DNA from: a virus
DNA: 60,767 bases
Virus record (IMG/VR): IMGVR_UViG_3300033993_001964
Span: 1 to 60,767 of that record
Strand: one strand, 5' to 3'
This document shows positions 41,830 to 48,715 of this stretch, one piece after another. A program made the translations under genes and the position numbers. The first letter of the stretch is position 1. Each line of letters begins with the position of its first letter. The notes under the pieces are model-generated. The model did no database searches and was not told the DNA's origin. It worked only from the letters and a program-made list of their open reading frames with translations.

Positions 41830-42186
41830 CTAGAACCCCACGAGCTCTTCTTCGTGGTTCTCGGAGCGGTCACGCTTGCGCCACCGCAGGCTCTTGCCAA
41901 CCTCGTTGGCCAGCAGGCGCAGCGACGTGCCAGTCGTGCCGTCCTTCTTCGTGTACTGCTCGAGCTGCAGGTTGCCGCGAATCACCACCCGGTCTCCCGG
42001 CTGAAGCGACTCGGCGACGATGTCGGCCTGCTCATCGAACACCACGACGTCGAGCCAGGTGGTCTGCTCTCCGGTTGGGGTCTTTGAGCTAGAGGCGACC
42101 GAGAAGTTCGCCATCTGCTTGCCGGTCTTGGTCATCCGCACCTCAGGCATGCGGCCTACGTTTCCTGTGACTGTGGCCTCAATCAT
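41830..42186 (-). CDS. ssb: Single-stranded DNA-binding protein
   Basis: 118 residues, an OB fold of SSB type: MIEATVTGNVGRMPEVRMTK, FSVASSSKTPTGEQTTWLDV, ADIVAESLQPGDRVVIRGNL, QLEQYTKKDGTTGTSLRLLA. It keeps the strand pattern and the Trp in TTWLDVVVF, but lacks the long acidic-tipped tail of bacterial SSB; the end here is DRSENHEEELVGF, with a short acidic patch and a final Phe. It would protect ssDNA made by the exonuclease and serve replication. An inverted repeat lies upstream of its SD. Confidence 0.92.
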   Translation of the reverse strand: MIEATVTGNVGRMPEVRMTKTGKQMANFSVASSSKTPTGEQTTWLDVVVFDEQADIVAESLQPGDRVVIRGNLQLEQYTKKDGTTGTSLRLLANEVGKSLRWRKRDRSENHEEELVGF

Positions 42187-42198
42187 GAGAGCCTCCTT

Positions 42199-42222
42199 GC
42201 GCTAGGGTTATCGAACTAGCGC
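42199..42222. promoter_or_regulatory. Inverted repeat upstream of SSB
   Basis: A perfect 7-bp inverted repeat GCGCTAG/CTAGCGC is separated by 10 bases and sits just before the SSB ribosome binding site (AGGAGGC). There is no T tract. It may be an operator or an RNA hairpin affecting SSB translation; the sequence alone does not decide. Confidence 0.4.
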
Positions 42223-42289
42223 ACGGTTGTACACGCCTCAGGAGAAGCGCGCAAGGCCCCATTCGTCGTCGAACAGGAACCAGAACGGG

Positions 42290-42703
42290 CTAACCACCAA
42301 GTCCGACGGGGTTGCCACCTGGAGACTGCGGCTTACCGTAGCCCTTCCACATGGAGTTGTGGCGCATCTGGTTGCCGATGAACTTGTCCTGGCTGGCATT
42401 GGCCTGACGCACGTCTTTCCAGGAGTCATTGAGGTAGCGGTCGCCAGCGGCCTCGCCAAGAGGGTCATGGCCGTCACCAGCCACAGGCGGACGAGGCAGC
42501 AAGCTCGAGCTACCGGACGTCATGGCGCCAAGCACCGACTCACGGCCGGCTGGAGTGTGCAGCTGGCTGGCTGGCACCTGGCTGGGGTCCATGTCCAGGA
42601 CCATCGGGTCACCGTCGCCGGCGTGCATGTCCAGCGTCATAGGGCGATTAGCGTTCGTCAGGTCACGGATGCGGGACTCGGTGGTGGATTTGTTCGTTGG
42701 CAT
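42290..42703 (-). CDS. Hypothetical protein (137 aa), first minus gene
   Basis: 137 residues, low complexity and mostly polar: AGDGDPMVLDMDPSQVPASQ, SGSSSLLPRPPVAGDGHDPL, NDSWKDVRQANASQDKFIGN, and a Gly/Pro end. It is the most upstream gene of the leftward operon and faces the divergent plus-strand cluster. No domain was recognised. It is either a virion part or a regulator; the acidic-polar composition favours a disordered protein. Confidence 0.6.
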   Translation of the reverse strand: MPTNKSTTESRIRDLTNANRPMTLDMHAGDGDPMVLDMDPSQVPASQLHTPAGRESVLGAMTSGSSSLLPRPPVAGDGHDPLGEAAGDRYLNDSWKDVRQANASQDKFIGNQMRHNSMWKGYGKPQSPGGNPVGLGG

Positions 42704-43029
42704 GGGGACTCCTTGCTTGTTTTATGGGTCGGGGCCTTTCGAAAACGGGAAAAAATCCAGGGGCTGCATTTACATGAGGGGCGGGCGCGAAAGGGGGGCT
42801 CGGGGCCTTTGATCTGTCGCCGTAAGTCCTTTGCCAGCGCGGGCTTGCGTTGTCGGACAAGGAACACGCGGTCGTGAAGGTGGCCCGAGCCAATTAAATC
42901 TGGGTCGCTCTTCCCCGCTTGCCCGCAGTTCGCGAATTGCGAACGCCCCTGTTTTCAGGCACCGGCGAGTAACAGTGTCAGCAGCAACCGCAGCACTTCG
43001 CTGAGGACTGACTGGCACGGAGGATTCGC
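42704..43029. promoter_or_regulatory. Divergent intergenic region with dyad
   Basis: Noncoding stretch between the leftward structural operon and the rightward cluster. It contains a perfect 6-bp inverted repeat GTTCGC/GCGAAC with a 5-base spacer at 42928-42944, immediately before the first copy of the repeated leader element, and several C/G-rich runs. Convincing -35/-10 pairs are not seen. As the divergence point of two opposite gene sets it is the likely place for divergent promoters and possibly a switch. Confidence 0.45.
42946..42981 (+). repeat. Leader repeat element, copy 1
   Basis: First and most diverged of six related plus-strand elements. It reads CCCCTGTTTTCAGG-CA-CCGGCGAGTAA; the AGGGG half of the hairpin is changed to AGGCA, so the stem is not preserved while TTTTCAGG and CGGCGAGTA are. 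It ends 48 bases before the 51-residue gene. Unlike later copies it is not followed by a T-rich terminator. Confidence 0.7.
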
Positions 43030-43185
43030 ATGCTGTGCTGCAGCTGCTGTGGGAACGTCTTCGCCAACGAGGTCGCTGACCCGGCGTTTGTCTGCGACCT
43101 GTGCGATGCCGAGCGTCGTGAGGCGTACCTGGAAGAGATGAAGGACGCCGAAGACGACCCGTTTCCGGGAGTCGTCGATTGGTGA
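43030..43185 (+). CDS. Small zinc-ribbon-like protein (51 aa)
   Basis: 51 residues; GGAGG lies 6 bases before the ATG. MLCCSCCGNVFANEV then FVCDLCDAE gives two close CxxC pairs, the arrangement of a zinc ribbon, followed by an acidic helical tail. It is the first gene of the plus-strand cluster. It could bind metal and perhaps nucleic acid or a host protein; the function is unknown. Confidence 0.7.
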   Translation: MLCCSCCGNVFANEVADPAFVCDLCDAERREAYLEEMKDAEDDPFPGVVDW

Positions 43186-43275
43186 GGGCTCGCGAGGCCG
43201 CCCAGTGACTTCGGTTGCTGGGCGAGCTCCTGCGCCTTTGCAGGCTGTTCGGGTCTTTCTCTTGGAGGATTGGAA

Positions 43276-43386
43276 ATGCTTTGGCTTCTACGCGCGGCGA
43301 TGCGTGCTGTGCTGGTCCTTGTGCTCTTGGACTGCGCCGCCAACGTGGTACTGGCGCTGCTCCGTGCTTGGGTCGCTTCACACTGA
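43276..43386 (+). CDS. Very small membrane peptide (36 aa)
   Basis: 36 residues with GGAGG upstream. The sequence is almost all hydrophobic (AVLVLVLLDCAANVVLALL) with Arg residues on both sides, giving a single transmembrane helix. Small inner-membrane peptides are common early phage products. It is followed directly by the second copy of the leader element. The short length keeps confidence moderate. Confidence 0.55.
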   Translation: MLWLLRAAMRAVLVLVLLDCAANVVLALLRAWVASH

Positions 43387-43398
43387 AGTGACAGCAAA

Positions 43399-43436
43399 CC
43401 CCTTGTTTTCAGGGGTCGGCGAGTATCAGTAGCAGG
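43399..43436 (+). repeat. Leader repeat element, copy 2
   Basis: CCCCTTGTTTTCAGGGG followed by TCGGCGAGTATCAGTAGCAGG. The CCCCT/AGGGG stem is intact. The leader continues for 93 bases to the next ATG and can form further stems (GTCGGC/GCCGGC, GGACT/AGTCT). A CAGTCTTTTAG stretch follows a CCTGCT half-stem but is not a clear terminator. Confidence 0.85.
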
Positions 43437-43528
43437 TCAGCGGCACCTCCCACCAACCGCATTTCCTGCTCAGTCTTTTAGTCGGCAGTCAGCCGGCGGA
43501 CTGGGCGGGAGTCTTGTGGAGGTGTCCC

Positions 43529-43951
43529 ATGTCCTTTCGTAAGGGTGACCTGTTTGTTGTCTCGTGTGCTTTGGTTGCGGTCGGGTTCATGGTCTCGATG
43601 TTCGTTGCGTCTGGTAGTGCCAACACGTGGCTCTACGGCGTCTCGGAGTCGGTGACCAGCTACCTGGCTGCACCACAGCGAATAGCTCGGCTCGAGGCTG
43701 AGGTCAAGGAGTGCGACGGCTTGCTGGCTGTGGCACGACGCGATCTCAAGTCGGCACACGAGCGGCTGGACTCTGATGCCACGCAGCACCGCCACGTGCT
43801 GGATGCTGCGAAGGTACAGATTGCTGTGGCTGAGGGGGAACGCGACCGGCTCTTTGCCGAGCTGGCTTCGCTGCGTTCCCGCCATGCCACGCTGTGCCAG
43901 CAGCTGCTCGAGCTGGGCAATGACGTGCCTAGTGTTCTGGCTGGAGAGTAG
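43529..43951 (+). CDS. Membrane-anchored coiled-coil protein (140 aa)
   Basis: 140 residues from MSFRKGD, with GGAGGTG upstream. One transmembrane helix (about 10-28, LFVVSCALVAVGFMVSMFVA) is followed by a polar region and a long coiled coil from residue 50 to the end (ARLEAEVKECDGLLAVARRD, GERDRLFAELASLR). The topology resembles a single-pass membrane anchor with a long cytoplasmic or periplasmic coil. Function unknown. Its TAG stop forms the first base of the hammerhead ribozyme. Confidence 0.72.
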   Translation: MSFRKGDLFVVSCALVAVGFMVSMFVASGSANTWLYGVSESVTSYLAAPQRIARLEAEVKECDGLLAVARRDLKSAHERLDSDATQHRHVLDAAKVQIAVAEGERDRLFAELASLRSRHATLCQQLLELGNDVPSVLAGE

Positions 43952-44002
43952 CCCGAAACCCGCTTCGGCGGGTCTCACCGTGATGCGGTGACTGATGAGG
44001 GC
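43951..44002 (+). ncRNA. Type II hammerhead ribozyme
   Basis: All core positions are present. Order: GCCC (stem II 3' strand), GAA (12-14), stem III ACCCGC-UUCG-GCGGGU with the A15.1-U16.1 pair, C17, cleavage expected between 43974 and 43975, stem I UCACCG-UGAUG-CGGUGA, CUGAUGA core (43992-43998), then GGGC closing stem II (4 bp). Stem III and stem I are perfect 6-bp hairpins, and stem III is capped by UUCG. Stem II is the open one, the type II permutation known from prokaryotes and phages. It begins at the stop codon of one gene and ends 33 bases before the next ATG, so cleavage would split the mRNA. Confidence 0.95.
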
Positions 44003-44035
44003 AGTTCCCCTGTTTCTTGGAGGGAGGAATAAAAG

Positions 44036-44317
44036 ATGACGCTCGTGACCCTGAGTGCAGCTCAAGGCTGTGCCATCCTGGCTGTGATAGCCAGCGTGTA
44101 CGTGACCTGGAAGATGGCCGCGTCTGCCCGAGACCGGGTCGACTGGCTCAAGGATGACATGGACGACCGCGAGTCTGCCATGTCCGTGATGGTAGACGGC
44201 ATGAGTCAGAAGGTTGACGCCCTGTCTGCTCAGGTCGAGCGGCTGGCGGCTAAGTTGCAGGACCGCACGCTCGATGCGGCCCGTGTCCGGATGAAGAAGA
44301 TCAAAGGAGGTGCCTGA
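44036..44317 (+). CDS. Membrane-anchored coiled-coil protein (93 aa)
   Basis: 93 residues with GGAGGGAGGA upstream. It has an N-terminal transmembrane helix (SAAQGCAILAVIASVYVTWK) and a coiled coil over most of the rest (SAQVERLAAKLQDRTLDAAR) ending in a basic tail. The gene lies directly downstream of the ribozyme, so its message would begin with the stem I hairpin after cleavage. Similar topology to the upstream gene suggests partner proteins. Confidence 0.72.
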   Translation: MTLVTLSAAQGCAILAVIASVYVTWKMAASARDRVDWLKDDMDDRESAMSVMVDGMSQKVDALSAQVERLAAKLQDRTLDAARVRMKKIKGGA

Positions 44318-44658
44318 TGCCATACGCTGATGCCAAGTACCCCAAACCCAAGCAAGAAAGAGGTGAGTCAATGCACGACTGCCCACTGTGTGGCGCACCC
44401 AAGCCCAACGAGGACTGGGACTGGTCCAAGTCTGTGTCGGTGATGGTGGATAGCGGCGAGCGGATCATCAGGCTCGCAGACAGCGACGCGCACTCGCTGT
44501 ACGCAATGCTTAGTAAGTCGTGGAGAGAGGACGGCAAGCCAAAGGGCGACTGGCGGGACGGAGTGCTCGACCTGCTGTTCGCTCAGTTTGGGATAGACCA
44601 AAGGATGATCGACGCCCAGCTGGACGACGAGCCGGAGGACCAAGCGAAAACCCCCTGA
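44317..44658 (+). CDS. Hypothetical protein with CxxC motif (113 aa)
   Basis: 113 residues; the start overlaps the previous stop as TGATG. A knuckle HDCPLCGAPKPNEDW lies at about 20-33, followed by a compact alpha/beta region (SVSVMVDSGERIIRLADSDA) and an acidic tail. Its TGA stop lies inside copy 3 of the leader element. Function unknown; the knuckle suggests metal or nucleic-acid contact. Confidence 0.72.
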   Translation: MPYADAKYPKPKQERGESMHDCPLCGAPKPNEDWDWSKSVSVMVDSGERIIRLADSDAHSLYAMLSKSWREDGKPKGDWRDGVLDLLFAQFGIDQRMIDAQLDDEPEDQAKTP

Positions 44659-44688
44659 TTTCAGGGGCCGGCGAGTAGTAGTAGACGG
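44652..44688 (+). repeat. Leader repeat element, copy 3
   Basis: CCCCTGATTTCAGGGG followed by CCGGCGAGTAGTAGTAGACGG. The TGA stop of the preceding gene is the loop of the CCCCT/AGGGG hairpin. A strong terminator-like hairpin follows directly. Confidence 0.88.
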
Positions 44689-44694
44689 TTCGAT

Positions 44695-44735
44695 AGCCCT
44701 GCCGGGCACCCTACCCGGCGGGGCTTTTTCATTTC
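44695..44735 (+). terminator. Intrinsic terminator (leader of 44754 gene)
   Basis: A 12-bp stem (AGCCCTGCCGGG paired with CCCGGCGGGGCT, one wobble) with a 7-base loop and a TTTTTCATTTC tail. It is followed within 10 bases by the ribosome binding site of the next gene, so it either ends the upstream transcript or acts as an attenuator in the leader. Confidence 0.85.
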
Positions 44736-44753
44736 TCTAACCCGGAGTTTCAC

Positions 44754-45140
44754 ATGGCTATGCCAGCGTGGCCCCCTTACCTGGTGATGCAGTATCGGTG
44801 CGGAAAGGTCAAGAAGAATCGTGTCTACGCTCTGGTCCGCACCAAGAGCGAGGCAAAGGAGCTCGTGATCTCTGCGTCAGTCAAGCGACGCAGGGAGAAC
44901 GAGTTCTACGTAGTGATCGACGGACCCAAGTCCGCACGAGACCCAGACCACACGTACTTCGTCGGTGCTCTGTGCCATGCCGGCCGTGAGATTGTTCTCA
45001 TGGAAGGCGAGGAGCATCCGATCCTCATGCCTGTCGAGGTCGCTCGGATGTACGAGGGCGATGAGTCGGTCAAGTTCCTGACCCAGAATCGCCAGGCCCT
45101 TTCCGCTCCCGCACAGCAGGAGGAGGGGCAGCAGGAATGA
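44754..45140 (+). CDS. Hypothetical protein (128 aa)
   Basis: 128 residues, with the second half ending in an Ala/Gln/Glu-rich tail. Features: YRCGKVKKNRVYALVRTKSE, SVKRRRENEFYVVIDGPKSA, DHTYFVGALCHAGREIVLME. The CGK and KxKKNR beginning looks like a compact beta fold with many basic residues. No family was recognised. It overlaps the following gene by ATGA. Confidence 0.7.
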   Translation: MAMPAWPPYLVMQYRCGKVKKNRVYALVRTKSEAKELVISASVKRRRENEFYVVIDGPKSARDPDHTYFVGALCHAGREIVLMEGEEHPILMPVEVARMYEGDESVKFLTQNRQALSAPAQQEEGQQE

Positions 45141-45391
45141 GACTGCACACGGTCACCGCACGAGGGGTGGCAGTGTCATTCCTCATGGACGAGTTGAGAT
45201 CTTACGACGACGCGCTCGATGCGCTAGTCTCCAGCAAGGACGGAATGGGCGAGTTCACTGACGCCCACATGGAATCAGTGACCAGTCTCTACACCAAGAT
45301 CAGGACCGCAATCCTGATCGCAACAGAGGGGGAAACCCTCAGGAGGGAAACGCGTGAGCGACTCACTTACGACTGTGAGCCTGACGAATGA
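45137..45391 (+). CDS. Hypothetical protein (84 aa)
   Basis: 84 residues, largely helical (SFLMDELRSYDDALDALVSS, DAHMESVTSLYTKIRTAILI) with an acidic C terminus. It overlaps the preceding gene by ATGA and the next gene by 38 bases. Function unknown; co-translated with its neighbours. Confidence 0.65.
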   Translation: MRLHTVTARGVAVSFLMDELRSYDDALDALVSSKDGMGEFTDAHMESVTSLYTKIRTAILIATEGETLRRETRERLTYDCEPDE

Positions 45392-45578
45392 CCAGCTCGA
45401 GGTCGTGCTGGACGCACTGGATCAGTACCGGCAGGAGAACCACGACCTGCTGATGCTGTCCGACTTCGACGACGAGACGTTTGGCGTAGTCGCTGGGCGT
45501 GTCGAGATCGCAGTCAATTTGATGCGTGATCTGGGCGTGGACATCGGCACCGACTCTGAAGAGGAGGTGGTCGAATGA
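45354..45578 (+). CDS. Hypothetical acidic protein (74 aa)
   Basis: 74 residues from a GTG with AGGAGGG upstream. Helical and acidic (VSLTNDQLEVVLDALDQYRQ, EEEVVE end). The long overlap with the upstream gene and the good SD support real translation of both frames here. Function unknown. Confidence 0.65.
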   Translation: MSDSLTTVSLTNDQLEVVLDALDQYRQENHDLLMLSDFDDETFGVVAGRVEIAVNLMRDLGVDIGTDSEEEVVE

Positions 45579-45946
45579 ACGTAGCCACAGGGAATCGTGT
45601 GACCGCACAGGATCTTGTGCGTGTCGAGAAGCTGGAGGCTCAGGTCGGCGTGCTTGAGCTCGCGGCGCAAGAGGTTGTTGCCAGCATTCACAACCTGCGT
45701 ACTGACCAGCTTGCGAGTGCGAAGCGCTGCATAGCCACAGGCACGAAGGTGTTTGCCAAAGAGGAAGACACCCCAGTGCAAGAGCTCGAGCGAGAGATCG
45801 CCTTGCTCAGGGCCCGCCTGCAGTGCGAGCTGTGGGAGGGATGGTGGACTGAAGTTGAGCAGGAGTTGGCCAAGCTCAACGCTGCGTTCGCTGAGTTCCG
45901 GGCAACGAAGAGCCTTGCGTCAGTGCTCGATTGCTGCAGCGATTGA
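45575..45946 (+). CDS. Coiled-coil hypothetical protein (123 aa)
   Basis: 123 residues, mostly coiled coil: KLEAQVGVLELAAQEVVASI, QELEREIALLRARL and WWTEVEQELAKLNAAFAEFR. Translation starts by ATGA overlap and the stop is directly before copy 4 of the leader element. It has no membrane segment. It ends the operon segment begun at 44754. Confidence 0.68.
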   Translation: MNVATGNRVTAQDLVRVEKLEAQVGVLELAAQEVVASIHNLRTDQLASAKRCIATGTKVFAKEEDTPVQELEREIALLRARLQCELWEGWWTEVEQELAKLNAAFAEFRATKSLASVLDCCSD

Positions 45947-45980
45947 CCCTTGATTTCAGGGGTCGGCGAGTTAATTCGGG
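45947..45980 (+). repeat. Leader repeat element, copy 4
   Basis: CCCTTGATTTCAGGGG followed by TCGGCGAGTTAATTCGGG. The first C of the stem is replaced by A (from the preceding TGA), and the trailing AGTAG is lost, but the TTTCAGGGG-YCGGCGA centre is unchanged. A strong terminator follows immediately. Confidence 0.85.
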
Positions 45981-46022
45981 AGGCCGGTGACCACGTTGGC
46001 GCCGGCCTCCCTTTTCTTTTTT
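45978..46022 (+). terminator. Intrinsic terminator (leader of 46036 gene)
   Basis: A perfect 10-bp stem GGGAGGCCGG/CCGGCCTCCC with a 14-base loop and a TTTTCTTTTTT tail. The tail ends at the ribosome binding site (GGGAGGTG) of the next gene. No space remains for a promoter between them, so readthrough or attenuation must be possible if that gene is expressed from upstream. Confidence 0.9.
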
Positions 46023-46035
46023 GGGAGGTGTTCCG

Positions 46036-46356
46036 ATGGGGAGTTACGTGTTCAGTCTGTATGTCGTTGAGCTGGATCCCGCCGTGCTTGATCACGGCCG
46101 AGTCCGGCGAGCCAACCCTAAGGGTGGTGCCCGCTGCCTGTATGTAGGCAGCACTGCCCATGACCCCGAGTATCGGTACGCCCAGCACAAGCAGGGTGTA
46201 CATGCGAACAGGGGATACGTTACACAGTACGGACGCGGGCTGAGGACGGACCTCAGCGATGGCCGCACGTACACAACCAGGCAGGACGCCGAGCGGGCTG
46301 AGGCACAGCTTGCCGAGCAACTCAGGAAGGAGGGCTACTCAGTATGGTCACGGTGA
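46036..46356 (+). CDS. GIY-YIG nuclease-like protein
   Basis: 106 residues, GGGAGGTG SD. The GIY-equivalent strand is SYVFSLYVVEL and the YIG-equivalent is CLYVGSTAHDPEYRYAQHKQ, which keeps the Tyr and the Arg/His-rich helix. The end EAQLAEQLRKEGYSVWS agrees with the C-terminal helix of stand-alone GIY-YIG domains. This domain cleaves DNA or RNA in homing endonucleases and nucleases such as UvrC. With no extra binding domain it may be a free-standing nuclease acting on host DNA; target unknown. Confidence 0.78.
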   Translation: MGSYVFSLYVVELDPAVLDHGRVRRANPKGGARCLYVGSTAHDPEYRYAQHKQGVHANRGYVTQYGRGLRTDLSDGRTYTTRQDAERAEAQLAEQLRKEGYSVWSR

Positions 46357-46742
46357 AACAGGTGCCGCCAAAGGAAGTGCTAGACGAGGTGATGGACAAG
46401 GCAATCCGTGCACATCGCTTTGCCTCGTACTTGCACGGTCGCTCCGCTGCAGATGTTGTCAGGTCACAGCCAATGCTCAAGGCTGCGTTTGCCGAGAGGT
46501 CCCAGCTGTCTCGTCTCAGAAACGAGCGCAGTAATTACTGCGAGTGCCCTGACTGCATTGCAGATGGACGTCACGCAGAGGACCTTGCCTTGATGGACGC
46601 CAAGTCTGCGCTGGCGTATCGAAATCTTCGCCGCAGCCTTGCTGAGCTACAGCACGTGCTGACTCGCGCTAAAGATGAGATCGACGAAGCGGTCAACCTG
46701 CTTCAAGTTCAGTCCCTGCTCTCCGTTTGTCCAGACCAATAG
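46344..46742 (+). CDS. Hypothetical protein with CxCxxC motif (132 aa)
   Basis: 132 residues overlapping the GIY-YIG gene by 13 bases. Helical throughout, with a knuckle SNYCECPDCIADGRHAEDLA in the middle and a coiled-coil C-terminal half (RNLRRSLAELQHVLTRAKDE). It resembles small phage proteins that bind metal through CxCxxC. Function unknown; co-translation with the nuclease hints at a joint role. Confidence 0.68.
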   Translation: MVTVKQVPPKEVLDEVMDKAIRAHRFASYLHGRSAADVVRSQPMLKAAFAERSQLSRLRNERSNYCECPDCIADGRHAEDLALMDAKSALAYRNLRRSLAELQHVLTRAKDEIDEAVNLLQVQSLLSVCPDQ

Positions 46743-46750
46743 GAGGCACG

Positions 46751-46996
46751 ATGGACGAAGACCCAATCGGTGCATCGCTACTAGCATCAGCAGAGTTGGC
46801 ATACCAGCTGCGAGTGCTCGTATCTGACGTGATCTACGTACACCAGCGCGGCTACTCAGCCGACGAGGTTGGCAACGTGCTTGACTACGCAGAGGAACAC
46901 TGCCATCGGATCCTGTCGGAACTCAACGCCGTGCAGGACCACTTGGCTGTCGTGAAGGCAATCGACCGCATGGCCGACGTGTCCTGCGGCGACTGA
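46751..46996 (+). CDS. Hypothetical helical protein (81 aa)
   Basis: 81 residues from MDEDPIG, with AGGAGGC upstream. Helical and acidic (AELAYQLRVLVSDVIYVHQR, VLDYAEEHCHRILSELNAVQ) with one Cys pair at the end (DVSCGD). No family. It closes the segment between leader copies 4 and 5. Confidence 0.65.
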   Translation: MDEDPIGASLLASAELAYQLRVLVSDVIYVHQRGYSADEVGNVLDYAEEHCHRILSELNAVQDHLAVVKAIDRMADVSCGD

Positions 46997-47002
46997 CGTA
47001 AA

Positions 47003-47040
47003 CCCCTTGTTTTCAGGGGTCGGCGATTACTTGTAGAGGG
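47003..47040 (+). repeat. Leader repeat element, copy 5
   Basis: CCCCTTGTTTTCAGGGG followed by TCGGCGATTACTTGTAGAGGG. The preceding gene's TGA lies 6 bases upstream. The trailing bases form the start of the next terminator stem, so element and terminator overlap slightly. Confidence 0.88.
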
Positions 47041-47076
47041 CTGGCAGCGCCGGGCTGTCAGTCCTCTTTTCTTTTT
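47036..47076 (+). terminator. Intrinsic terminator (leader of 47102 gene)
   Basis: A 12-bp stem GAGGGCTGGCAG paired with CTGTCAGTCCTC (two wobbles), a 7-base loop and a TTTTCTTTTT tail. The next gene's SD (GGGAGGTG) lies 16 bases beyond. Confidence 0.85.
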
Positions 47077-47101
47077 CCCGGCGTGCTTAGGGAGGTGTCC
47101 C

Positions 47102-47305
47102 ATGTCGAGCGAGAACCGTGAGTCGAAGGCCCCAGCTGTGGCGGCCATGCAGTTCATCCGTTTGGATGAGTGCCGTGACCGGCTGTGTGCCGGCCCGGTG
47201 GAGGTTGATCGGTCTGCCTTTGTCCGTGCGTTGGCTCACTGCACCAACGGCGAACGACGCGAGGTGGCTGACATGCTCCTCGCCGAGAAGTTCGGGGAGC
47301 TGTGA
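47102..47305 (+). CDS. Hypothetical protein (67 aa)
   Basis: 67 residues, first gene of the segment after leader copy 5, SD GGGAGGTG. The sequence FIRLDECRDRLCAGPVEVDR and FVRALAHCTNGERREVADML is helical with four cysteines. Its stop overlaps the next small gene by TGATG. Function unknown. Confidence 0.65.
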   Translation: MSSENRESKAPAVAAMQFIRLDECRDRLCAGPVEVDRSAFVRALAHCTNGERREVADMLLAEKFGEL

Positions 47306-47472
47306 TGAACTACAACTTCAGCGAGTTGCTGGGTCTTATTGACCCGGCGTTCAAGCTGGCGTTCGGCCTGGCCGGGATGGTGCAAACCCACCCGGACCAG
47401 GTCACTGCCTGCTGTGCCCTGTATATCGCAGGTGCCAGGTTTCTCACGGTCCTCCGCCGCCGGCGGATCTGA
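47305..47472 (+). CDS. Small membrane-like peptide (55 aa)
   Basis: 55 residues starting in a TGATG junction with the previous gene. Hydrophobic segment LIDPAFKLAFGLAGMVQ and CALYIAGARFLTVL with a basic end RRRRI suggest one or two membrane helices and a positive cytoplasmic tail. Its size gives only moderate confidence that it is translated. Confidence 0.55.
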   Translation: MNYNFSELLGLIDPAFKLAFGLAGMVQTHPDQVTACCALYIAGARFLTVLRRRRI

Positions 47473-47475
47473 CCA

Positions 47476-47501
47476 GACGCATGGGTCGTGCGACCCACGT
47501 C
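47476..47501 (+). other. Strong RNA hairpin before 47532 gene
   Basis: GACG-CA-TGGGTCG-TG-CGACCCA-CGTC forms an 11-bp stem with a 2-base bulge. An AATCTCTTCTCTCC stretch follows that is only partly T-rich. It starts 4 bases after the previous stop and ends before the GGAGGTG ribosome binding site, the same layout as the terminator leaders; it may be a weak terminator or a 5' stabiliser. Confidence 0.6.
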
Positions 47502-47531
47502 AATCTCTTCTCTCCATTCTGGAGGTGTTCG

Positions 47532-47765
47532 ATGGCTGATCCTGTCACGGATGATGGCCCGAAGGTGATCGACGTCTTGCTTGATAGCAAGGTTGTCGGC
47601 CAGGTATTCGGCGTGGGTCGACGGTTCTACTTCATCCTCACCGACGAGCGCGACGACAAGCCGCGCGGTTGGTATCGCAATGCCGACGCTGCCGTCGAGG
47701 CGGCATGGCATCAGGCGAAGGTGCTCGAGCAGGCAGAGTTCTGGGAGATCATGCTCGACACCTGA
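47532..47765 (+). CDS. Hypothetical protein (77 aa)
   Basis: 77 residues from MADPVTDD with GGAGGTG SD. A small alpha/beta protein: KVIDVLLDSKVVGQVFGVGR, RFYFILTDERDDKPRGWYRN, then an acidic helix ending WEIMLDT. No family was recognised. It stands alone between a hairpin leader and the next terminator. Confidence 0.68.
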   Translation: MADPVTDDGPKVIDVLLDSKVVGQVFGVGRRFYFILTDERDDKPRGWYRNADAAVEAAWHQAKVLEQAEFWEIMLDT

Positions 47766-47789
47766 TCTAGGCAAAGTGCAGCACTGTGC

Positions 47790-47803
47790 TGTACGTTAGT
47801 ACA
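47790..47803. promoter_or_regulatory. TGTAC-N4-GTACA dyad
   Basis: TGTAC-GTTA-GTACA, a perfect 5-bp inverted repeat with a 4-base spacer, lies 8 bases before a terminator hairpin and upstream of the 279-residue gene. The ACGTTAGTACA part is identical to the dyad half-site at 39132-39142, and the dyad itself matches that near the sigma gene. Candidate binding site or promoter element. Confidence 0.55.
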
Positions 47804-47810
47804 CCTCCCG

Positions 47811-47858
47811 GCAGGCGGGCCGCTTCAGTCGCAAGGCTGGGCGGCCCGTCTGCTTTTC
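47811..47858 (+). terminator. Intrinsic terminator (leader of 47876 gene)
   Basis: A 13-bp stem GCAGGCGGGCCGC/GCGGCCCGTCTGC (one wobble) with a 17-base loop and a short TTTTC tail. It ends 17 bases before the ATG of the 279-residue gene. Confidence 0.82.
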
Positions 47859-47875
47859 ACACTGAAAGGGAACCG

Positions 47876-48715
47876 ATGACGATTCAGATTGCTGGCTCTG
47901 CGGCGATTGCCTTCGGGCAGAACAAGCCGCACCTCCGCTCACTGTTGCAGACAGCCTGCGACAATCAGGGGTGGGGCAAGATGGTCAACCGCCCACCGTC
48001 CAAGCACAGCTCGCTCGAGCGTGCCATGCAGACGGTGTGCAAGGGGCTCTCGATCGAGGCCGACGCGGTGTTATCCGTGCGGGCACTCGAGCCTGAGCTT
48101 TCGTTCGAGGCGACGCGTGTCCGCAAGGGCACGACGCGCAACACGGTGACGCACCTCGCTTCCGCTCAGGTGGACGAGGCTGCTGGCCGTGTGACACTGG
48201 TCAGCTGGAACCCTCAGGCCGACAGCCTTCAGCTGTCTACCGATTTGGATGCGGAGTACCAGAGCAACCTGCTCTATGTAACTCCGGCCCAGCTGCACGG
48301 TGTCATCGCCAATGTAGTAGCCAAGCTCAAGGGCGTGGAGCTGGGCGGACGGAATGTCTTCTACATCCCACAGTCTGGGGTGCAGACGTTCAGTCAGTGG
48401 CAGTCCGATGCCCAGATCTCTAGCTACCACACCGTGCCTCTCGAGACTGCCAAGTCTCCGGACACAGTGAAGCACATCCTCGACCAGCTCAACGAGGAGG
48501 TGACGCGAGAGGGTGCGGCAGTGCTAGAGGCAGCGGCCTCTGGTTCTGTCGAGCCGCGATCGGCGAAGGCTATGGCCAAGCGTGCTCGTGCACTAGTCGA
48601 CAAGATCAAGTCGTACGAGTCGGCGCTTGGTCAGTGCCTTGACTGGATGCGTGAGCCGCTCGAGCAGGCAGAGAGTGCACTGGCCGTCACCACCCTGCTG
48701 TCGGTGTCAGCATGA
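47876..48715 (+). CDS. Hypothetical protein (279 aa)
   Basis: 279 residues from MTIQIAGSA; longer starts overlap the terminator. SD AAAGGGAA. An alpha/beta first half (AFGQNKPHLRSLLQTACDNQ, TVCKGLSIEADAVLSVRALE, YVTPAQLHGVIANVVAKLKG) is followed by a helical tail (RALVDKIKSYESALGQCLDW). I do not recognise the family. It precedes the small DUF4314-like gene and the MoxR-VWA genes. Confidence 0.7.
   Translation: MTIQIAGSAAIAFGQNKPHLRSLLQTACDNQGWGKMVNRPPSKHSSLERAMQTVCKGLSIEADAVLSVRALEPELSFEATRVRKGTTRNTVTHLASAQVDEAAGRVTLVSWNPQADSLQLSTDLDAEYQSNLLYVTPAQLHGVIANVVAKLKGVELGGRNVFYIPQSGVQTFSQWQSDAQISSYHTVPLETAKSPDTVKHILDQLNEEVTREGAAVLEAAASGSVEPRSAKAMAKRARALVDKIKSYESALGQCLDWMREPLEQAESALAVTTLLSVSA

Follow-up and report, generated by a model that had tools for sequence, protein, structure and literature searches.

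A type II hammerhead ribozyme abutting a stop codon in a phage gene cluster: a candidate device for forming mRNA 3′ ends

The locus and its ribozyme

The stretch of DNA analysed here (the window), 60,767 bases long, makes up an entire IMG/VR virus record. The large terminase and portal genes lie on its minus strand, and a plus-strand cluster of small genes extends from about 43 to 54 kb, with a serine recombinase at its end. An earlier note on this DNA had spoken of a plus-strand phage cluster, a description that holds for gene direction and for nothing beyond it. The following features lie around one intergenic junction of the cluster.

43529–43951, plus strand: upstream cistron (140 aa), an open reading frame with a GGAGG ribosome site, encoding an N-terminal hydrophobic helix and a coiled-coil-like body
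43949–43951, plus strand: UAG stop codon that ends the upstream cistron; stem II starts with its G (direct reading)
43951–44002, plus strand: type II hammerhead ribozyme (Rfam RF02276, 30 bits; covariation in relatives)
43951–43954, plus strand: 5′ strand of the open stem II, GCCC, pairing with GGGC at 43999–44002 (direct reading)
43955–43957, plus strand: core GAA (direct reading; unchanged in relatives)
43958–43973, plus strand: stem III hairpin ACCCGC-UUCG-GCGGGU (A43958–C43963 with G43968–U43973, loop 43964–43967)
43974–43975, plus strand: predicted cut, 3′ of C17 (43974), from the hammerhead rule of cleavage 3′ of H17
43975–43991, plus strand: stem I hairpin UCACCG-UGAUG-CGGUGA (U43975–G43980 with C43986–A43991, loop 43981–43985)
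43992–43998, plus strand: core CUGAUGA (direct reading; C at position 7 in L144)
44003–44012, plus strand: conserved tail 3′ of stem II, AGUUyCCCU type (alignment of relatives)
44036–44317, plus strand: downstream cistron (93 aa), encoding an N-terminal hydrophobic helix and a charged tail, with a GGAGG ribosome site

The flanking cistrons had been described in the earlier note as membrane-protein genes, and each protein was indeed found to have one strongly hydrophobic N-terminal stretch; the position of the ribozyme between two cistrons of one message was likewise supported. The 140-aa upstream protein has no Pfam match, and a relative of it was found only in L172 (57%).

Direct reading showed that the 52 bases at 43951–44002 on the plus strand form a complete type II hammerhead with the full core and three stems, namely a 4-bp stem II, a 6-bp stem III with a UUCG loop and a 6-bp stem I. 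CUGAUGA, GAA and the A15.1–U16.1 pair are present and H17 is not G, by direct reading and in the alignment of relatives, and the reading, the Rfam match and the fold all give the type II layout, in which loops close stems I and III while stem II is open. The identity, all the coordinates and the predicted cut site at 43974/43975 proposed in the earlier note proved exact on direct reading and by Rfam match. As it had also stated, the ribozyme begins at the TAG of the upstream gene, G43951 being shared by the stop codon and stem II, and the predicted cut lies 61 nt ahead of the ATG at 44036. The UAG stop codon and the stem III hairpin are separated by 6 nt.

A covariance-model match, for which the earlier note had asked, was obtained with RF02276 (Hammerhead_II) at 30 bits (E = 4.4e-4 in 601 bases and 1.0e-5 in its own genome). 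The score of 30.0 bits is below the curated Rfam cut-off of 37 bits, which is the curation threshold of Rfam Hammerhead_II and not a structural criterion, and a default Rfam scan gave no match because the ribozyme scores under this cut-off. The window contains a single match to the core pattern, where 0.02 would be expected by chance.

The minimal element folds at −26.8 kcal/mol (z −1.95), and its minimum free energy (MFE) structure is the hammerhead. With longer flanks, the nearest-neighbour model favours an upstream hairpin over stem II at this ribozyme, a preference common to most type II hammerheads and to shuffled flanks. A regulatory switch, in which stem II would be disfavoured by MFE in long context, was rejected, since 205 type II elements and shuffled flanks behaved alike. 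A scan of 42000–48000 reported no intrinsic terminator at 43958–43990. By eye, no pseudoknot of at least 4 bp was seen between loop I (UGAUG, UAUGG, UAAGG, UUAGG or UGAGG) and the tail AGUUUCCC, whereas such a pseudoknot is common, though not universal, in type II hammerheads (PMC3088659).

Judged by its sequence, this type II hammerhead should be catalytically competent, and it belongs to a phage transcript that spans several genes. Cleavage of this sequence is likely, because tandem prophage hammerhead arrays cleaved in vitro and one cleaved in Escherichia coli (PMC3088659).

Elsewhere in the plus-strand cluster, a repeat of the form CCCCTGATTTCAGGGG-YCGGCGAKTA-nnAGTAG occurs in six intergenic copies (window positions 42946, 43400, 44652, 45947, 47004 and 48924, plus strand). 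It is a palindrome with a promoter-like tail, one copy of which lies just before the ribozyme's upstream gene, and is perhaps a phage promoter/operator family. Terminator-like hairpins with U-runs (44695–44725 and 47035–47067, plus strand) lie directly 3′ of two CCCCTGATTTCAGGGG-type repeats; a repeat of this type followed by such a hairpin looks like a promoter plus attenuator.

Conservation of the ribozyme among relatives

Relatives were found through the terminase among viral contigs, and L189 was added from a pattern scan. The same ribozyme is present at the corresponding place in L131/L133 (two copies, 258 bases apart), L136, L138, L144, L172, L180 and L189, and divergent copies occur in L152 and L158. 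The search of related phages proposed in the earlier note thus found the ribozyme in each recovered contig of the lineage that extends far enough; L123 and L137, seemingly without it, stop short of the place. It was not found in the searched whole records of other terminase relatives, G003 to G007 and G010 to G012, several of which are fragments and the first of which is the record of L137. Baits and queries reaching further gave little: no DNA relatives of the region were detected among cultured phages at the sensitivity used, the 67-base element alone as a DNA query gave partial chance matches only, the terminase had no match in bacterial genomes, and the AAA-ATPase used as bait found no relatives.

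Across the eight distinct relatives, pairing is intact in 128 of 128 pair cells. Two-sided changes affect four pairs (CG to GC, UA to CG, CG to UA and AU to GC), of which one compensatory change lies in stem III (C–G to G–C) and three in stem I, compared with zero two-sided changes in every slid control. Stem II is invariant across these relatives, and so is without proof by covariation. In the relatives the stop codon likewise overlaps or adjoins the ribozyme. The Rfam Hammerhead_II scores of the relatives range from 21.9 to 31.1 bits. In L144 (complement of 83–149) the core reads CUGACGA, with C at position 7.

Loss of the core in related genomes, which the earlier note had named as grounds for refutation, was not seen. 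The score under the Rfam cut-off might be taken as a sign of chance resemblance or of a dead relic, an explanation that we regard as extremely improbable given the E value of 1e-5 in the genome, the core kept in the relatives and the covarying stems in the eight distinct ones.

The flanking genes vary among relatives while the ribozyme stays, other members having other small membrane-type genes beside it. The 93-aa downstream protein has a 98% relative in L172, where an extra 64-aa gene lies between the ribozyme and that gene, and in L131 a single 59-aa gene lies between the two ribozymes. By eye, a membrane gene like the 93-aa downstream gene sits upstream of the ribozyme in L131, L138 and L144; the gene order around the ribozyme has therefore changed.

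Such exchange of neighbours, together with the two L131 copies flanking one gene, is what would be expected of a cassette linker, that is, a sequence kept or spread by recombination that swaps small genes around it, with cleavage being incidental. However, the stems change by compensation instead of being kept identical, and the layout of stop and hairpin described below is found again where the stem sequences are unrelated, and in type III hammerheads too, which leaves this explanation with very little probability.

Stop codons and hairpins at phage hammerheads

The overall comparison comprised about 300 phage and prophage relatives. From pattern scans blind to stop codons, with the terminase relatives added, the viral contigs gave 186 distinct type II hammerheads that could be used. 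Upstream genes in these surveys are same-strand open frames 50 codons or more in length, not annotated genes. The results showed that GAA lies within 12 nt of the upstream stop in 84% of the 186 (random positions in the same contigs 6%, antisense 4%) and within 6 nt in 70% (3% and 3%, respectively). Counted by independent upstream-protein clusters, GAA is within 12 nt of the stop in 147 of 174, and all three stop codons occur. In a replication set from bacterial genomes, 65% of type II hammerheads are near a stop, compared with 4%. Isolates that carry such elements include Selenomonas ruminantium S137 (L498) and Brevibacillus borstelensis NRRL NRS 818 (L553). Type I hammerheads are partly pinned, with 40% within 12 nt of a stop.

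The position of the type II ribozyme is tied to the stop and is not just a matter of tight space. Its 5′ slack has a median of 0 nt (IQR −1 to 3) and its 3′ slack a median of 24.5 nt (IQR 20 to 33), an asymmetry that compactness alone therefore has no power to explain; compact phage genomes could be a contributor to the stop adjacency.

In 62 of the 186 type II hammerheads, stop codon and stem II strand share bases; in most others they are within a few nt of each other. This geometry would suit a translation-gated cut, in which a ribosome that terminates at the UAG hides stem II and GAA, and folding of the ribozyme is limited to times when translation of the upstream cistron is not being completed. 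In type III, however, the stop lies a median of 32 nt before the ribozyme, outside the ribosome footprint, and gating therefore cannot be the shared purpose. As the role of the element it is quite improbable; it could be an additional effect in type II.

The permutations differ in the ends that they leave. The type II upstream product ends in a hairpin (stem III), whereas the type III upstream product ends single-stranded; if a protected 3′ end is the purpose, type III should therefore need an added hairpin. Of the 58 type III clusters, 26 (45%) have a perfect stem, 6 bp or longer, that directly abuts the 5′ edge of the ribozyme, compared with 2.7% in shuffles (binomial p about 2e-25), the test not being held-out, as the idea came from the first cases, which the final set includes. 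Just over half of the type III clusters are without a strict flush hairpin. A flush 5′ hairpin is found in 2% of type II (shuffles 1.4%) and 5% of type I hammerheads (shuffles 1%). The start of the hairpin after the stop has its mode at 5–6 nt in type II (stem III) and at 7 nt in type III. In type II and in many type III hammerheads, the upstream mRNA would therefore run from the stop codon through a short gap into a hairpin, followed by the cut.

The hairpins upstream of the type III hammerheads in L343, L353, L364, L393, L394 and L397, which lie in different contigs, are alike and have the form GUGUCUUCAAAGACAC. Such a GUGUCUUCAAAGACAC-type hairpin and the type III hammerhead are perhaps one mobile or co-inherited unit.

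The emphasis of the earlier note had been on the downstream RNA with its 5′ stem I hairpin. If the ribozyme were a divider serving the downstream gene, the defined, hairpin-capped 5′ end would alter stability or translation and so constitute a differential expression step. With type II and type III alike, every cut does place stem I directly at the new 5′ terminus, and the next start codon in type II lies at a fairly constant distance past the cut (median 56 nt, IQR 51–63). Nevertheless, this 5′ hairpin follows from the fold itself; the mirror test, for an added hairpin on the downstream product of type I, which has none of its own, was negative (1.8% vs 0.7% in shuffles); and the downstream genes change freely across relatives. 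A role on the downstream side is thus rather unlikely, and the emphasis placed there was not borne out, the comparative data pointing to the 3′ end of the upstream mRNA. As judged from the pinning to the stop and the type III hairpins, selection appears to show at that 3′ end and not at the downstream 5′ end.

The placement rule of stop, hairpin and cut across permutations is the new part here. No report of the stop-codon rule was found in the literature searched, which took in a minority of subscription journals. The text of PMC3088659 makes no mention of stop codons, and the passages of it consulted here contain nothing on an added hairpin in type III.

Proposed role and relation to known systems

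We consider it probable that the ribozyme supplies the upstream mRNA with its 3′ end within a continuing transcript. The transcript would cut itself between 43974 and 43975, and the upstream message would then end with the UAG, 6 nt, the GC-rich UUCG hairpin and one C carrying a 2′,3′-cyclic phosphate. Such an end would resemble the product of an intrinsic terminator, and it would present 3′ exonucleases and poly(A) polymerase with neither the 3′-OH nor the single-stranded landing site that they require; as a hairpin and a 2′,3′-cyclic phosphate generally do, it would resist 3′ decay. The 3′ end would be made while RNA polymerase goes on into the next gene, and the downstream genes, which have a ribosome site of their own, would remain on an RNA beginning with a 5′-OH stem I hairpin. 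We infer both the cleavage in vivo and the protection of the upstream mRNA.

Whether phage hammerheads generally are 3′-end-forming devices, whose cut leaves a stop, a gap of 5–10 nt, a stable hairpin and a short blocked 3′ end, we regard as evenly balanced; on this general reading, type III would have evolved a separate hairpin supplying what its fold lacks, so that the same end is made regardless of permutation. To our knowledge, natural hammerheads have been known in phages and prophages since about 2010 without an agreed purpose. If 3′-end formation is true of them, it would supply one shared purpose for prophage hammerheads, which have long gone unexplained, and, if the model holds, would constitute a host-independent way of ending an mRNA without ending transcription. 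The placement rule differs between permutations exactly as a model of 3′-end protection predicts, and its sharpness makes the open question of hammerhead purpose experimentally simple.

Two known systems leave comparable ends. At the RNase III sites of phage T7, a polycistronic transcript is cut between genes and hairpin 3′ ends are left; the two kinds of processing work alike, but in T7 a host protein cuts, whereas here the RNA would cut itself, and the systems are not homologous. Intrinsic terminators place a GC-rich hairpin soon after the stop codon at the mRNA 3′ end. Unlike them, the ribozyme has no U-run, its end would come from cleavage, and transcription need not stop.

It has been reported that hammerheads flank single genes in prophages and that type II is common in bacteria; transcript processing was proposed for the prophage hammerheads (PMC3088659, Perreault et al. 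2011). The element described here is an additional case of these published type II phage hammerheads, and the idea of a transcript divider is not new. The mRNA divider in a phage put forward in the earlier note therefore stands as the best class of explanation, but not as the notable novelty that it was taken for, having already been proposed in PMC3088659. The permutation, the core, the three stems, the intergenic position in phage clusters and the tandem copies flanking genes are shared with the type II hammerheads of that paper. The present lineage differs from RF02276 and PMC3088659 in its 4-bp stem II, UUCG stem III, 5-nt loop I and sub-cut-off score, and from the type II hammerheads of PMC3088659 in having no evident 4-bp pseudoknot between loop I and the tail. 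PaP3, a phage named in PMC3088659, gave no match in the relaxed ribozyme scan, no cultured annotated phages with such elements were found, and one annotated phage region from the distant matches gave no ribozymes when scanned. The HDV-like theta ribozymes of gut phages are likewise small self-cleaving ribozymes in phage genomes but, as summarised in PMC10879173, they belong to a different fold class and are tied to tRNA-based recoding, not to protein stop codons.

Multiple type II copies also occur in other contigs. Dense arrays were observed in L208 (8402–11317), where seven lie in 3 kb of viral contig, and in L556 (8–2844), where six lie in 3 kb of a Bathymodiolus symbiont contig, and four type II hammerheads each are present in L023 and L039.
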